Positions 4,590 to 35,322 of a DNA stretch of 64,000 nucleotides are shown here, in pieces. Every line of letters begins with the position of its first letter. Positions within the stretch are counted from its first letter, which is position 1. Under the pieces are notes generated by a model, which searched no databases, was not told the DNA's origin, and worked only from the letters and a program-made list of their open reading frames with translations. The stretch covers positions 372,001 through 436,000 of the forward strand of contig NZ_JAGGJP010000001.1 in the NCBI RefSeq assembly GCF_017872975.1. Reading direction: 5' to 3'. The DNA is from Rubellimicrobium aerolatum. Its GTDB lineage: Bacteria; Pseudomonadota; Alphaproteobacteria; Rhodobacterales; Rhodobacteraceae. A program made the position numbers and the translations under genes.

Positions 4590-7277
4590 TCACTCCGCGG
4601 CGGCGGCGAGGCCCTGGGGGAAGGCCACCCGGAAGGCCGCTCCGCCCTGCCCCGGCAGGTAGGCGATGGAGCCGCCCAGCCGCGCCATGACCTCGCGGCA
4701 GATGGCGAGTCCGAGCCCCGCGCCCGAGGGCTCGGGCCGGCCCGAGCGGCGGCCCGAGAGGCGGGCGAAGGACTCGAAGATCACCTCGCGCTCGGGCACG
4801 GGGATGCCGCTCCCGTTGTCGGCGAAGTCCACGATCACCTGCCCGCCCCTGCGGTGCACGGAGATCCGCAGCTCGGGCCGGTCGGCGTCGCAGTATTTCG
4901 CGGCGTTCGAGGCAAGGTTGATGAAGACCTGCGCCAGCCGGTCGAGGTCGGTGCTGATCGCCACCGCCTCCTGGCCCGGGTCGCGCAGCACCCGCAGCCC
5001 GGCGCGGGCGACCCCGGCCGACAGGAGCGCACGGTCGATGACGTCCGCCAGGAGGCCGTGCTGCCGCTTGAGCGACACCTGCCCGTCGCGCAGCACCGAC
5101 AGGTCGAGGAGGTCGTCGAGCAGGCGGGTCATCCGCTGCGCCTCGGCCTCGACGATCCGGGCGAATCGCTGCGCCTCCAGAGGGGACAGCCCGTCCTCGG
5201 CCAGCAGCGAGGAGAAGGAGCGGATCGCGGTCATCGGCGTCCGCAGCTCGTGGCTGATTCGGCTCAGGAAGGCGTCCTTCTGGCGGGCGAGCTGGGTGAG
5301 CTTGTCGTTGGCCTCGCGCAGGGCGCGGGCGGTGCGCTCCTGCTCGGCGGACTTCTGCTCCAGCCGGGCGGAGTATTCGAGGATCTGCGCCGTCTCGCCC
5401 GCCACGGCCATCAGATCCTCGACCGAGACGCCGGGGCCCTGCACGAGCTGGCCCACCAGGGCGTGCGCGGCGGCGGCCCCGACCGAGCCCGCGAGCTCCC
5501 GCTCCAGCCGCTGGAGGAAGGCGGGGGTCGGGTCGGGCAGGTGGCCGGACTTGCCCTGCCGTCCGGCCTCGGCGCCGAAGAGGTCGAGCGCCGCCTCGGT
5601 GCCCAGGACGCGCTGCGCGAGCACGAGGAGATCCTCGACCTCGGCGCCGCTGCGCGACCAGGCGCGGCCGGGCTGCGCCCTCTCGAACACGTTGACGAAC
5701 TGCGCGCCCTGGAGCCGTTCGAGCGGCTTGGGGAAGGTGAGGAGCGAGACCAGCGTGAAGGCCGTGGCGTTGAGCAGCAGCGACCAGATCACCGCGTGGA
5801 GGAGCGGGTCGAGCCCCGCCAGCCCGAAGAGCGCGCGGGGCCGGAGCCAGTCGAGACCGTAGGGGCCATTCTCGAGGACGGTCGCCGGGATGACGGCCAG
5901 CCCGAACGAGGGCAGGAACAGCGTCCAGGCCCAGACCGTCGCGCCGATGGCCAGCCCGGCCCCGGCCCCCTTGGCGGTGCCGCCGCGCCAGAACACGCCG
6001 CCCAGCAGCGCCGGCAGGATCTGCGCCACCCCGGCGAAGGCGATGAGCCCGATGGAGGACAGCGCCACGCCCGAGCCGGTGATCTGGAAGTAGACGTAGC
6101 CCAGCGACAGCACGCCGCCCACCGAGGCCCGACGCGCCAGTAGGATCGTGCCGCGCAGGTCGCGCGAGACCTGATCGGGGCGCCGCGTGGACAGCCAGAG
6201 CGGCGCGACGATGTGATTGGAGACCATGGTGGCGAGCGCGATGGTCGCCACGATCACCATGGAGGTCGCCGAGGAGAAGCCCCCGAGGAAGGCCAGCAGC
6301 GCCAGCCCGCCATGCCCCTCGGAGATCGGCAGGGCCAGCACGAAGAGGTCGGGATTCGAGCCCTCGGGCAGGCGGTCGAGCCCCACGACGGCGATGGGGA
6401 CGACGAAGAGGCTCATCAGGAGGACGTAGAGGGGGAAGGCCCAGCTCGCCACGGCGAGGTGGCGGTCGTCATCGTTCTCGACCACCAGGACGTGGAACAT
6501 CCGGGGCAGCGTCAGGAAGGCCGCCGCCGACAGGAAGGTCAGACCGACCCAGCGCCCGCCGTTGCCCTGCCACATCGGGATCGGCGCGCGGTCGATCCGG
6601 TCGAGGATGCCGCCCACGCCGCCGCCCAGGCCCCAGACCACGAAGACCCCCACGGCGAGGAGCGCGAAGAGCTTGACCACCGCCTCCACCGCCACCGCCA
6701 TGACGATGCCATGGTGCCGCTCGGACGGGTCGAGGTTGCGGGTGCCGAAGAGGATCGTGAACACGGCGAGCCCGATGGCCGTCCAGAGCGCCACGAAGTC
6801 CACGTCGGCGCGGCCGCCCTCCAGCCCCTCGGTGAAGGCCGCGAAGGTGAGCGAGATCGACTGGAGCTGGAGCGCGATGTAGGGCGTGACCCCCGCCACC
6901 GCGATGAGCGTCACCAGCGCGCCGATGGGGACCGACTTGCCGAAGCGCGAGGACACGAGGTCGGCGATGGAGGTGATCCGCTGCGCCCGCCCGATCCGCA
7001 CCAGCTTGCGGACCACCCACCACCAGCCCACCATCACGAGGCTCGGGCCGAGGTAGATCGTCAGGTATTCGAGCCCCGACCGCGCCGCGTAGCCGACCGC
7101 GCCGTAGAAGGTCCAGGCGGTGCAGTAGATCGACAGCGACAGCGTGTAGATGAGCGGCGAGCGCAGCCAGCCGCCGCGCCCCGCCCGCGCCCGCCGGTCC
7201 GCCGCGAAGGCCACGGCGAAGAGCATCGCGACATAGCCCAGCGACACCGCGACCAGCGTGTTGAAGGTCAGGATCAC
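4590..7277 (-). CDS. Sodium:solute symporter-histidine kinase fusion (CbrA/CrbS type)
   Basis: This 895-residue membrane sensor kinase has an N-terminal sodium/solute symporter (SSS) domain of about 12-13 membrane helices (residues about 5-540), with SSS features such as SIYCTAWTFYGAVGYAARSG. A linker, a coiled coil (about 615-660) and a complete kinase core follow: H-box ISHELRTPM with phospho-acceptor His676, N-box NLASNAAKY, G1 DNGSGIP and G2 GAGLGLAI. Members of this architecture sense nutrients such as acetate or amino acids, probably coupled to transport. The GTG start at 7277 overlaps the stop of the preceding gene (GTGA), which indicates translational coupling. With the membrane protein and receiver upstream it forms a three-gene operon. 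The ligand is unknown. Confidence 0.85.
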   Translation of the reverse strand: MILTFNTLVAVSLGYVAMLFAVAFAADRRARAGRGGWLRSPLIYTLSLSIYCTAWTFYGAVGYAARSGLEYLTIYLGPSLVMVGWWWVVRKLVRIGRAQRITSIADLVSSRFGKSVPIGALVTLIAVAGVTPYIALQLQSISLTFAAFTEGLEGGRADVDFVALWTAIGLAVFTILFGTRNLDPSERHHGIVMAVAVEAVVKLFALLAVGVFVVWGLGGGVGGILDRIDRAPIPMWQGNGGRWVGLTFLSAAAFLTLPRMFHVLVVENDDDRHLAVASWAFPLYVLLMSLFVVPIAVVGLDRLPEGSNPDLFVLALPISEGHGGLALLAFLGGFSSATSMVIVATIALATMVSNHIVAPLWLSTRRPDQVSRDLRGTILLARRASVGGVLSLGYVYFQITGSGVALSSIGLIAFAGVAQILPALLGGVFWRGGTAKGAGAGLAIGATVWAWTLFLPSFGLAVIPATVLENGPYGLDWLRPRALFGLAGLDPLLHAVIWSLLLNATAFTLVSLLTFPKPLERLQGAQFVNVFERAQPGRAWSRSGAEVEDLLVLAQRVLGTEAALDLFGAEAGRQGKSGHLPDPTPAFLQRLERELAGSVGAAAAHALVGQLVQGPGVSVEDLMAVAGETAQILEYSARLEQKSAEQERTARALREANDKLTQLARQKDAFLSRISHELRTPMTAIRSFSSLLAEDGLSPLEAQRFARIVEAEAQRMTRLLDDLLDLSVLRDGQVSLKRQHGLLADVIDRALLSAGVARAGLRVLRDPGQEAVAISTDLDRLAQVFINLASNAAKYCDADRPELRISVHRRGGQVIVDFADNGSGIPVPEREVIFESFARLSGRRSGRPEPSGAGLGLAICREVMARLGGSIAYLPGQGGAAFRVAFPQGLAAAAE

Positions 7278-33288: not shown

Positions 33289-34476
33289 TCAGATCGCCAC
33301 CACGTCCAGCGGCGGGAAGCCGTTGAAGCAGACCGACGAGTAGGTCGAGGTGTAGGCCCCGGTGTTGCGGATCAGCACCCGGTCCCCGGCCTTGAGCGCC
33401 AGCGGAAGCTGCATCGGCCGCTTCTCGTACAGCACGTCAGCCGAGTCGCAGGACGGCCCGGCGACGATGCAGGGCCCCGTGGGCTCGCCGTCGTGCGGCG
33501 TCACGAACTGGTAACGGATCGCCTCCCCCTCCGTCTCGGCGAGGCCCGAGAAGCGGCCGATGGAGAGGTAGACCCAGCGATGCAGGTCGCGGTCGGACTT
33601 GCGCGAGGTGAGCACCACCTCGGCCACGATCATGCCCGCCTCGGCCACGAGGCCACGGCCGGGCTCCGCCATCAGGCGCGGCACGTCGCCGAAGCGCGCC
33701 GTCACCATCGCCATCACGCCCGCCGCGTAGTCGGTCGGGGCCTGGATCTCCTCGCCGTAGAAGGCCGGGAAGCCGCCGCCGATGTTCAGGAGCGTGAGCC
33801 CATGGCCGGCCGCCTGCGCCTCGGCCCAGAGATCGGCCACGGCGTCGAGCGTCGGCTCCCACATCTCGGCCTTGCGGGTCTGCGAGCCGACATGGAACGA
33901 GAAGCCCACCGGGTCGAGGCCAAGCTCCTTGGCATGGTCGAGCAGCCGCAGCGCCGTGTCGCGGTCGCAGCCGAACTTGCGGGTGAGCGGCCAGTCGGCC
34001 ATCGACACCTCGACGATGACGCGGATGTAGACCTGCGCGCCCGGCGCATGGGCGGCGATCTTCTCCAGCTCCTCCTCGGCGTCGGCGGCGAAGAGCGTGA
34101 TGCCCGCCGCGTGCGCCCAAGCGATGTCGCCCACCCGCTTGATTGTGTTACCGTAGGAGATCTGATGGGGCTGCGCGCCTTGGGCGAAGCACATCTCGAT
34201 CTCCCCGCGCGAGGCGGAGTCGAAATGCGCGCCAAGCTTGACGAGGCGGCCAAGGATCGCCGGATGCGGGTTGGCCTTGACGGCGTAATGGATGTCGGCG
34301 TGGCCGAGGCCTGCCTTGAGCGCGCGATACTGCGTCTCCATCCGGTCCACGTCGAGCACCAGCGTCGGGCGGTCGAACTCCGCCGTGGCGCAGAACGCCT
34401 CAAGACGGCTGTCGTCGAAGGAACGGACGTCAAGGGTGTGCGACGGGGCCACGGCCCCCGCGTGCAGAACAGTCAT
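33289..34476 (-). CDS. odc: Ornithine decarboxylase (PLP fold III)
   Basis: The 395-residue enzyme decarboxylates ornithine (possibly also lysine) to putrescine, the entry to polyamine synthesis. It is the eukaryote-like alanine-racemase-fold type found in alphaproteobacteria. Visible are PLP Lys67 in HYAVKANP, the SRGEIEMCF segment, HVGSQ (about 193), the glycine-rich phosphate loop LNIGGGFP (about 230-237), EPGRGLVAEAG and the C-terminal catalytic Cys in GPSCDSADVLYE. The ATG at 34476 gives the family N terminus. Upstream lies a long structured leader ending in a terminator-like hairpin, so expression is probably controlled by polyamines through attenuation. It is followed by a terminator. 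Confidence 0.9.
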   Translation of the reverse strand: MTVLHAGAVAPSHTLDVRSFDDSRLEAFCATAEFDRPTLVLDVDRMETQYRALKAGLGHADIHYAVKANPHPAILGRLVKLGAHFDSASRGEIEMCFAQGAQPHQISYGNTIKRVGDIAWAHAAGITLFAADAEEELEKIAAHAPGAQVYIRVIVEVSMADWPLTRKFGCDRDTALRLLDHAKELGLDPVGFSFHVGSQTRKAEMWEPTLDAVADLWAEAQAAGHGLTLLNIGGGFPAFYGEEIQAPTDYAAGVMAMVTARFGDVPRLMAEPGRGLVAEAGMIVAEVVLTSRKSDRDLHRWVYLSIGRFSGLAETEGEAIRYQFVTPHDGEPTGPCIVAGPSCDSADVLYEKRPMQLPLALKAGDRVLIRNTGAYTSTYSSVCFNGFPPLDVVAI

Positions 34477-34779
34477 CGGTCATCTCCGACAGAACAAGAA
34501 GGCCCCTCGCGGGGGCCAGGTGATTCCAAGGGAGACGTTACCGTCGCTACGTAAACACGTAAGCTGTGCTGTCCGGCCAGAGGCGCGTGCGTTGGCGTCT
34601 ATGGACCCCATGTGGGGCATATCGGGATTCGGATCAAGGACTAATTCCACCGGCGCCCAACTTTTTCGCGAGCCGCCTGTGGGACGTTAACGATTTGGCA
34701 GGACTTGTGAATCCCGCGTTGCGATCACGGACTATCTTGCCCTTTGACGGCGGTGGCCAGCCGTGGAACCTTGCCGCGC
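34477..34779 (-). promoter_or_regulatory. Structured odc leader, candidate speF-type regulatory RNA
   Basis: This 303-base gap between odc and the divergent pseudouridine synthase is less G+C-rich than the surroundings and is full of stems in the odc transcript. GTTGGGCG (34654-34661) pairs with CGCCAAC (34591-34597) around an inner CCCC-ACAT-GGGG hairpin (34606-34617). TACGT-GTTT-ACGTA lies at 34548-34561 and GACG-GTAA-CGTC at 34534-34545. A final GGCCCC/GGGGCC hairpin at 34501-34517 is followed by CTTCTTGTTCT just before the ribosome-binding site. Rfam describes a speF leader upstream of this gene in alphaproteobacteria; the match is my inference from position and structure. Confidence 0.6.
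34490..34517 (-). terminator. Terminator-like attenuator hairpin before odc
   Basis: A GGCCCC/GGGGCC stem with a short loop followed by the pyrimidine-rich CTTCTTGTTCT ends 14 bases before the odc start. Its position within the leader suggests conditional termination or control of ribosome access rather than constitutive termination. Confidence 0.55.
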
Positions 34780-35322
34780 ATGGCCCGGCTTCTCCTCCTC
34801 AACAAACCCTTCGGGGTGCTGTCGCAGTTCACCGACACCCGCAGCCCCTCGCCCCGCCCGACGCTCTCGGGCCTCGGCCTGCCGGCGGGCGTCTACCCTG
34901 CGGGCCGGCTCGACCGCGACAGCGAGGGGCTCCTGCTCCTCACCGACGACGGGCGGACGCAGGCGCATATCAGCGACCCTCGGCACAAGATGGAAAAGAC
35001 CTACTGGGCGCAGGTGGAGGGCGATCCGAGCGAGGCCCATCTGGAGCCGCTGCGCCGGGGCGTGACGCTGGCCGACGGCCCGACGCGCCCTGCCAAGGTC
35101 CGGCGGATCGCCCTGCCCGCGCTCTGGCCGCGCGACCCGCCGATCCGCGTCCGCCAGACGGTGCCGGACGCTTGGCTGGAGATCGTCATCACCGAAGGCC
35201 GCAACCGCCAGGTCCGCCGCATGACCGCCGCGGTCGGCCTGCCGACGCTGCGGCTTGTGCGCTGGCGCATCGGCGACTGGACCGTGGACGGCCTCGCGCC
35301 GGGCGAGTGGCGGGAGGCCTGA
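34780..35322 (+). CDS. RsuA/RluE-family pseudouridine synthase
   Basis: The 180-residue enzyme isomerises a uridine in ribosomal RNA; size and lack of an S4 domain make it most like RluE, which modifies 23S rRNA. It starts directly with the fold's ARLLLLNKPFGVLSQFT, contains the catalytic motif AGRLDRDSEGLLLLTDDG (Asp in GRLDRDSEG, about 46-54), KTYWAQVEG and the closing EGRNRQVRRMTAAVGLPTLRLVR. I prefer the ATG at 34780 because the family begins there; a TTG upstream at 34744 gives an unlike extension. It is divergent from odc and is followed by a family 1 repeat. Confidence 0.88.
   Translation: MARLLLLNKPFGVLSQFTDTRSPSPRPTLSGLGLPAGVYPAGRLDRDSEGLLLLTDDGRTQAHISDPRHKMEKTYWAQVEGDPSEAHLEPLRRGVTLADGPTRPAKVRRIALPALWPRDPPIRVRQTVPDAWLEIVITEGRNRQVRRMTAAVGLPTLRLVRWRIGDWTVDGLAPGEWREA

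Follow-up and report, generated by a model that had tools for sequence, protein, structure and literature searches.

A candidate translational switch in the odc leader of Rubellimicrobium aerolatum and its proposed kinship with the 5' half of the extended speF leader

Results

The odc locus and its leader

The DNA analysed here, which we call the window, is a stretch of 64,000 nucleotides from Rubellimicrobium aerolatum (contig NZ_JAGGJP010000001.1, positions 372,001 to 436,000), and window coordinates are collected in Table 1. The odc gene lies on its minus strand and encodes a member of the PLP-dependent ornithine/DAP/arginine decarboxylase family. None of the NCBIfam models that we tried reached its cut-off with this product, the lysA model included, and we take the enzyme to be an ornithine decarboxylase.

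We compared odc leaders from related genomes. A TTG(A/C/T) box is found at a near-constant distance upstream of a GACGCC motif in 115 of 116 leaders, as against 15 of 116 for a control stretch of the same size, and a CATATG-like box lies downstream of it in the aligned leaders. From these boxes, the odc transcript probably starts at about position 34600. A preliminary description of this DNA had assigned odc a structured leader of 303 nucleotides, but the stems that it drew at 34591-34661 lie almost wholly upstream of this probable start and would therefore belong mostly to the promoter. Unusual folding was not borne out either: 23 of 100 shuffled sequences fold as well as the 303-nucleotide stretch (z -0.64), and 102 of 200 fold as well as positions 34485-34680 (z +0.10). 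A GACG-GUAA-CGUC hairpin listed at 34545-34534 (minus strand) is present in the sequence.

It is conservation, not folding energy, that marks out the odc leader. A 291-base query of leader DNA matches 17 of 61 genomes, its own genome counted, and in the aligned leaders the blocks GACGCCAACGCACGCGCCUCUG and AGCGACGGUAACGUC, which are separated by a variable hairpin, are almost unchanged between genera. Thus, the odc leader named in the preliminary description is indeed conserved, although not in the architecture drawn there. In the gene itself, the start MNA is common to the odc genes behind 59 of 118 leaders, an extension that is absent elsewhere. In Rhodobacteraceae odc genes the codons that follow MNA often hold a small GC hairpin, and the shared start together with this hairpin may reflect conservation at the level of the RNA.

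Table 1. Features of the odc leader region in the window, and matches to a third leader form at other loci
Feature	Position	Strand	Remarks
odc	33289-34476	minus	Orn_Arg_deC domains PF02784 (8.5e-49) and PF00278 (9.5e-13)
Shine-Dalgarno region GGAGAUGACC	34478-34487	minus	sequestered in the predicted ground state
GC-rich hairpin capping the anti-SD/SD stem	34501-34517	minus	terminator of the preliminary description
Probable leader RNA, ~124 nt	34477-34600	minus	start placed from promoter and onset of conservation
Aptamer-like conserved core, 78 nt	34524-34601	minus	covariance model R1, 84.5 bits, E 9.4e-23, partly by construction because the window's own leader is among the 78 training sequences
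Switching strand GUUUACGUAGCGACGGUAACGUCUCC	34531-34556	minus	3' sides of P4, P3, P2 and P1 plus anti-SD; complementary to 5' core, ribosome-binding site and first codons
Anti-Shine-Dalgarno CGUCUCC	34531-34537	minus	pairs with GGAGAUG in 111-118 of 118 leaders per position
P4 base UGG	34577-34579	minus	pairs with 34552-34554; 89.6% of cells paired; remainder of P4 is a variable hairpin
P3 5' strand CGCGC	34583-34587	minus	pairs with 34545-34550, A34548 bulged; middle pair covaries
P2 5' strand CG	34590-34591	minus	pairs with 34542-34543; first pair CG in 77/78, UA in 1/78; second invariant
P1 5' strand GACG	34596-34599	minus	pairs with 34534-34537; replaced on both sides in other families
-10-like box CACATG	34609-34614	minus	family consensus CATATG, read from base frequencies once the leaders were lined up by their -35 boxes
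-35-like box CTTGAT	34633-34638	minus	probable odc promoter; TTG(A/C/T) box
Third-form leader L119	528-613		weak R3 match
Third-form leader L121	212-293		weak R3 match
Third-form leader L131	526-592		weak R3 match

Structure of the conserved core

We examined the structure of the core in an alignment, A2, that contains 78 of 93 prepared cores, the 15 with unusual or very long hairpins having been left out. The helices P1 to P4 are formed in 91.3% of cells, with changes on both sides in 7 of 15 pairs, while control structures slid along the same alignment are formed in 19-54% of cells, a comparison that favours the core structure to the extent that it was read from the A2 sequences themselves. 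The register given by Rfam for P2 and P3 of ar45 fits A2 less well (74.7% of cells paired). The middle pair of P3 is C-G in 50 of the 78 cores and U-A in the other 28 with no exceptions, a change that largely reflects a single split between lineages. Outside the Rhodobacteraceae, P1 is replaced on both sides by C-G, U-A and G-C pairs, as read from an alignment fitted to the model in which one row, L074, is a Rhodobacteraceae leader.

Within the Rhodobacteraceae, P1 is invariant except for one wobble and three unpaired cells, and covariation is limited to 2 of 14 pairs, since there is so little sequence variation. When RNAalifold was applied to a MAFFT alignment of 58 leaders it returned seven pairs, none of which shows a two-sided change; misalignment of the variable hairpins is the probable reason. 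Two further core alignments were prepared, with 47 (A4) and 41 (A5) cores after rows were dropped.

Pairing of the leader with the ribosome-binding site

The strand that forms the 3' side of the core ends in CGUCUCC and is complementary to GGAGAUG(ACC) upstream of the odc start. We counted these pairs in 118 of 125 distinct leaders, leaving out five that are irregular (L016, L017, L072, L073 and L074) and two without the SD pattern (L244 and L266), and observed that the anti-SD is almost invariant. In three of the irregular leaders (L016, L072 and L074) an anti-SD of the form UCC(C/U)U faces an SD of the GGGGA or AGGGA type, which is a compensated change. The seven anti-SD/SD pairs have mean pairing probabilities of 0.80-0.90 in the 54 of 58 leaders that were folded. 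We also exchanged partners between 57 leaders. The leader strand pairs better with its own SD and coding sequence (-25.94) than with those of other leaders (-23.66), and none of 2000 permutations did as well, although relatedness among leaders may inflate this and the other swap tests. With the SD alone the gain is slight (-12.08 against -11.88 swapped; 53 of 2000 as good). The helix with the first odc codons is partial, its individual pairs being present in 45-112 of the 118 leaders.

For the window RNA, taken as the 124-nt leader and 47 nt of odc, the free minimum is predicted at -67.8 kcal/mol with the SD closed. Forcing the aptamer fold gives -48.5 to -51.5 kcal/mol, which is 16-19 kcal/mol costlier, suggesting that opening needs either a signal or folding during transcription. 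Both folds, the aptamer-like and the SD-closed, are thus predicted, and they have one strand in common. Taken together, the folding models and the complementarity make pairing of the ribosome-binding site by the anti-SD strand well supported.

A similar relationship is seen in other families. There, an AUG with a loosely defined SD-like box is located 42-78 nt past P1 in 54 of 55 leaders, and the anti-SD/SD pairing is again better with the own partner (-16.95) than with swapped ones (-15.44), with 0 of 2000 permutations as good. These 55 leaders remained from 68 matches once the ar45-type rows, the cut and duplicate ones and a few more had been dropped. In leaders of the ar45 type, and in many more from alphaproteobacteria, a U tract follows P1, and in some of these the tract is paired with the SD of the following frame as well.

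Short upstream frames were recorded as well. In the Rhodobacteraceae we looked for a conserved leader peptide and rejected the candidate frames: AUG frames of at least six codons that lie between the transcript start and the SD occur in 79 of 118 leaders at no common position, the commonest being found in 28. Elsewhere in the Alphaproteobacteria a short upstream frame lies behind the core (L080, L087, L104, L113, L096, L102 and others); several of the predicted peptides carry SS(I/M/L/Q) close to their C-terminal end, which may mark a conserved leader peptide or else an RNA block. In L082, L090, L092, L150 and L186, the frame that begins at the AUG behind the core runs for 401-433 codons and takes in odc, as though an upstream frame had turned into an N-terminal extension of the enzyme.

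Kinship with the ar45 and speF RNAs

The preliminary description had called the leader speF-type. Neither RF00518 (speF) nor RF02347 (ar45) matches the window at the Rfam gathering score, and neither has a match at E up to 10 in positions 34400-34850. Across 17 leader loci, the window's own included, neither model finds a match at E up to 5, and RF02347 is likewise without a match in 17 further leader loci. Eight speF loci match ar45 in their upstream half, and six of them also match RF00518 at the gathering score. A covariance model, R3, trained on Rhodobacteraceae and intermediate leaders with no ar45 members, finds six of these eight ar45/speF leaders at the ar45 position, with E-values of 5e-6 to 4e-4 that, as in all searches with our models, are rough because calibration was shortened. 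The search that recovered these six also gave one misplaced match, in L018 (E 0.29). On 33 control odc loci without the element the sole R3 match has an E-value of 0.2.

Since R3 reaches these leaders without having been trained on any ar45 member, we take the element to be related, in compact form, to the upstream half of the extended speF leader. The block to which Rfam gives the name RF00518 was not found in the window leader; the part held in common is the upstream half, which is filed as 'sRNA ar45'. The earlier label thus stands as a statement of kinship but not as a match to RF00518 itself, and the kinship of the odc leader core with the ar45/speF leader is, from these sequence comparisons, well supported. 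A model of the Rhodobacteraceae leaders alone, R2, was trained on 47 of them. Among 48 other loci where the core was expected, R2 gave a match at E <= 0.001 in 28 (best 2e-12), with a best E-value of 0.016 on 24 control loci, and it reached only four of the eight ar45 leaders (E 0.03-0.07), indicating that it is the intermediate leaders that connect this family with ar45. A third form of leader before odc, CACGCACACCCACGU(G/A)CC...AACGAGGU(A/U)ACGGUGCG, gives weak R3 matches with E-values of 0.01-0.07.

Distribution of the core and the genes behind it

A model trained on 78 sequences of all types, R1, matches 78 of 385 Alphaproteobacteria genomes, and R2 matches 64 of 198 Rhodobacteraceae genomes with one copy each; both counts take in genomes that supplied training sequences, and 13 of the 64 are genomes new to the analysis (G760-G804). 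In a sample of the phylum, R1 matches 13 of 249 genomes, all 13 of them Alphaproteobacteria, the number of genomes from outside the class in that sample not being given. The gene itself is present in 54 of 149 Rhodobacteraceae genomes (E <= 1e-60). All 51 R2-matched genomes that belong to this survey carry odc, and the three odc carriers without an R2 match are G015, the enzyme of which is 43% identical, G299, where the core is degenerate (L073), and G364, where the locus is at a contig edge.

A pattern scan of public genome contigs returned at least 116 stretches, and most of the listed titles are Rhodobacteraceae or genera of that group. Among the matches listed, odc lies on the same strand with its start 42-67 nt past the core pattern in 76 of 80. 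Of the remaining four, L209 and L261 break off shortly past a start codon and L253 does so at the core; in L241 (Roseivivax lentus, 6287-6341, minus strand) the core is joined to a later part of odc in what looks like an odc remnant. Among odc loci of the class as a whole, 29 of 68 carry the blocks by pattern, typically as CGCACGUGCC...GCAACGACG. The pattern was not found in the other 39, some of which have odc behind another gene and a few of which have a recognisable variant.

We also examined 20 loci with extra or unassigned copies of the core, two of which are cut by contig ends. Of the 18 usable copies, 17 precede a polyamine gene: odc in two, speD-speE in one, a homospermidine-synthase-like gene followed by odc in one, and in 13 an odc paralogue, which is about 34% identical to the window's enzyme. 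Behind the paralogue, a homospermidine-synthase-like gene comes next in six of the 13 loci and a deoxyhypusine-synthase-like gene in two, one of these also with agmatinase. While speD, speE and agmatinase score above their NCBIfam cut-offs, only saccharopine-dehydrogenase-type domains were detected in the homospermidine-synthase-like gene, which we take to be a homospermidine synthase. From these gene contexts, copies of the core look like markers of a polyamine regulon, and the variety of target genes speaks against an odc-only signal. The eighteenth copy, L185 (G071:C26:54975-55040), is followed by a short SD, an AUG and a repeated GCCGUCGCCUUAGAGGCGAC stretch, with no recognised gene behind it; seven polyamine-gene queries gave no matches there.

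Discussion

We propose, with a probability of about 60%, that the 5' leader of odc contains a cis-acting translational switch, perhaps a riboswitch, which is compact and related to the ar45 half, at the 5' side, of the extended speF leader. The 5' part of the RNA would fold in an aptamer-like manner, with P1 (GACG/CGUC), P2 (CG/CG), P3 (CGCGC/GUAGCG with a bulged A) and the variable hairpin P4. In the predicted ground state the GUUUACGUAGCGACGGUAACGUCUCC strand would pair with GGAGAUGACC and close the odc ribosome-binding site. Since this one strand serves both as the anti-RBS strand and as the 3' side of the aptamer-like fold, we infer that the two folds are mutually exclusive in the cell; when the aptamer-like fold holds the switching strand, the ribosome-binding site would be free and odc would be translated. 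The choice between the folds would be made by a cellular signal that reflects the polyamine state, and a small molecule bound by the RNA is the likeliest candidate. This sign of control is tentative: in leaders in which a U tract follows P1, the aptamer fold could act as a terminator, and hence as the OFF state, which would be the opposite sign.

The preliminary description offered a different mechanism, in which a speF leader carries an intrinsic-terminator attenuator at 34501-34517 and transcription stops there unless upstream structure intervenes. The window does contain a six-base-pair, all-GC hairpin at that position followed by TTCTTGTTCT, a similar layout is seen in some relatives of the same genus, and U4 occurs between the anti-SD and the SD in 30 of 118 leaders. 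However, U5 occurs there in none of the 118; in relatives the position is occupied by hairpins of variable sequence, behind which the other genera in the alignment have neither a pyrimidine run nor a U tract; the SD begins 13 nt past the hairpin; and RF00518 is absent from the window and from the 17 leader loci. The hairpin and its pyrimidines are therefore real, but a terminator role for them is most improbable. Judging from the aligned leaders, the conserved property of the 3' part of the leader is its pairing with the ribosome-binding site. The earlier observation is in this way partly confirmed and its interpretation partly supported. Release of a trans-acting, ar45-like small RNA as the main conserved unit of the odc leader deserves equally little credence. 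The available text of PMC7717549 reports that Bartonella ar45 is expressed apart from the speF leader, and that of PMC2573895 that the S. meliloti speF locus was also found as a candidate small RNA, smrC45, possibly with its own transcript. In the Rhodobacteraceae, however, the anti-SD lies inside the 3' end of the core and is complementary to the adjacent ribosome-binding site, and no terminator-like U tract is present past the core.

Control by a leader peptide, in which a ribosome stalling on or reading a short upstream ORF regulates odc, has an example in the enterobacterial SpeFL. Among 54 leaders of other families, 39 have a frame of 8-59 codons that begins at the AUG behind the core, and odc or another polyamine gene lies further on. 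In the Rhodobacteraceae, by contrast, that AUG is the odc start itself, and we consider this explanation quite improbable for them. A protein such as Hfq, a ribosomal protein or a dedicated regulator might instead bind the core and set the fold in place of a metabolite. The invariant loop sequences are as compatible with a protein site as with an aptamer, S. meliloti ar45 RNA is reported to co-precipitate with Hfq (PMC7717549, in the part available), and the accessible text of Corbino et al. 2005, who described the extended speF element, records no binding of six pathway compounds to the A. tumefaciens RNA (PMC1273637). Against this, no individual protein is indicated by the data, and invariant positions of the core lie on both strands of a fold with several helices; we therefore regard a protein-set switch as unlikely.

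The candidate switch resembles several known RNAs in part. With ar45 (Smr45C, RF02347) it shares the block order CGCACG-Y-GCC, variable hairpin, GYARCGACGG, a position adjacent to a promoter and a similar downstream gene. The two differ in that P1 of ar45 is GCCC/GGGC followed by UUUUUU, while that of the window is GACG/CGUC without a U tract and with the anti-SD overlapping P1; the middle pair of P3 is U-A in ar45 and C-G in the window. Like the speF leader (RF00518), the window leader precedes a gene of the ornithine decarboxylase type in alphaproteobacteria. At speF loci the ar45 block lies upstream of the RF00518 block, and the A. tumefaciens construct comprised 400 nt compared with the ~124 nt of the window leader, for which control is predicted to act on translation of odc itself. 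The odc1 motif (uORF-25-1; Brewer et al. 2021, PMC8632094, in the part available) is likewise an alphaproteobacterial odc leader with the ribosome-binding site on the 3' side of a long stem. Compared by description, the stem with the ribosome-binding site is an analogous feature; odc1 has paired UUG starts and an 11-residue uORF, whereas the window family starts with AUG in 116 of 118 leaders and UUG in 2 of 118 and has no uORF at a common position. The spermidine riboswitch, a SAM-I variant with a proven ligand, also precedes polyamine genes such as speD, speE and speB according to the available text (PMC10853860), but its fold is of the SAM-I type and Rfam reports no SAM riboswitch in the window. 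A speF RNA is also mentioned in PMC11477304, and within the accessible passages of the open-licence PMC literature no description of the Rhodobacteraceae odc leader or of the switching strand was found.

In the parts available, the 2005 and 2020 papers did not settle what the speF leader does or what it binds, its 5' half being filed separately as a small RNA. The window form is a short RNA that abuts the odc start, and it has more relatives and target genes than the A. tumefaciens RNA that was tested. It would thus offer a small construct for ligand screening, with a defined switching strand for mutants. Its association with speD-speE and a homospermidine-synthase-like gene points away from a purely ornithine-specific signal. 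A broader and tentative reading, to which we give somewhat less than even odds, is that the core represents a new riboswitch class governing a polyamine regulon (odc, its paralogue, homospermidine synthase and speD-speE) in much of the Alphaproteobacteria, of which the 'ar45 sRNA' would be the Rhizobiales form cut at the switch. In the Rhodobacteraceae the whole 3' strand of the aptamer would then be the anti-RBS strand of a default-OFF, signal-ON switch, while in other lineages the same core would gate a short uORF.
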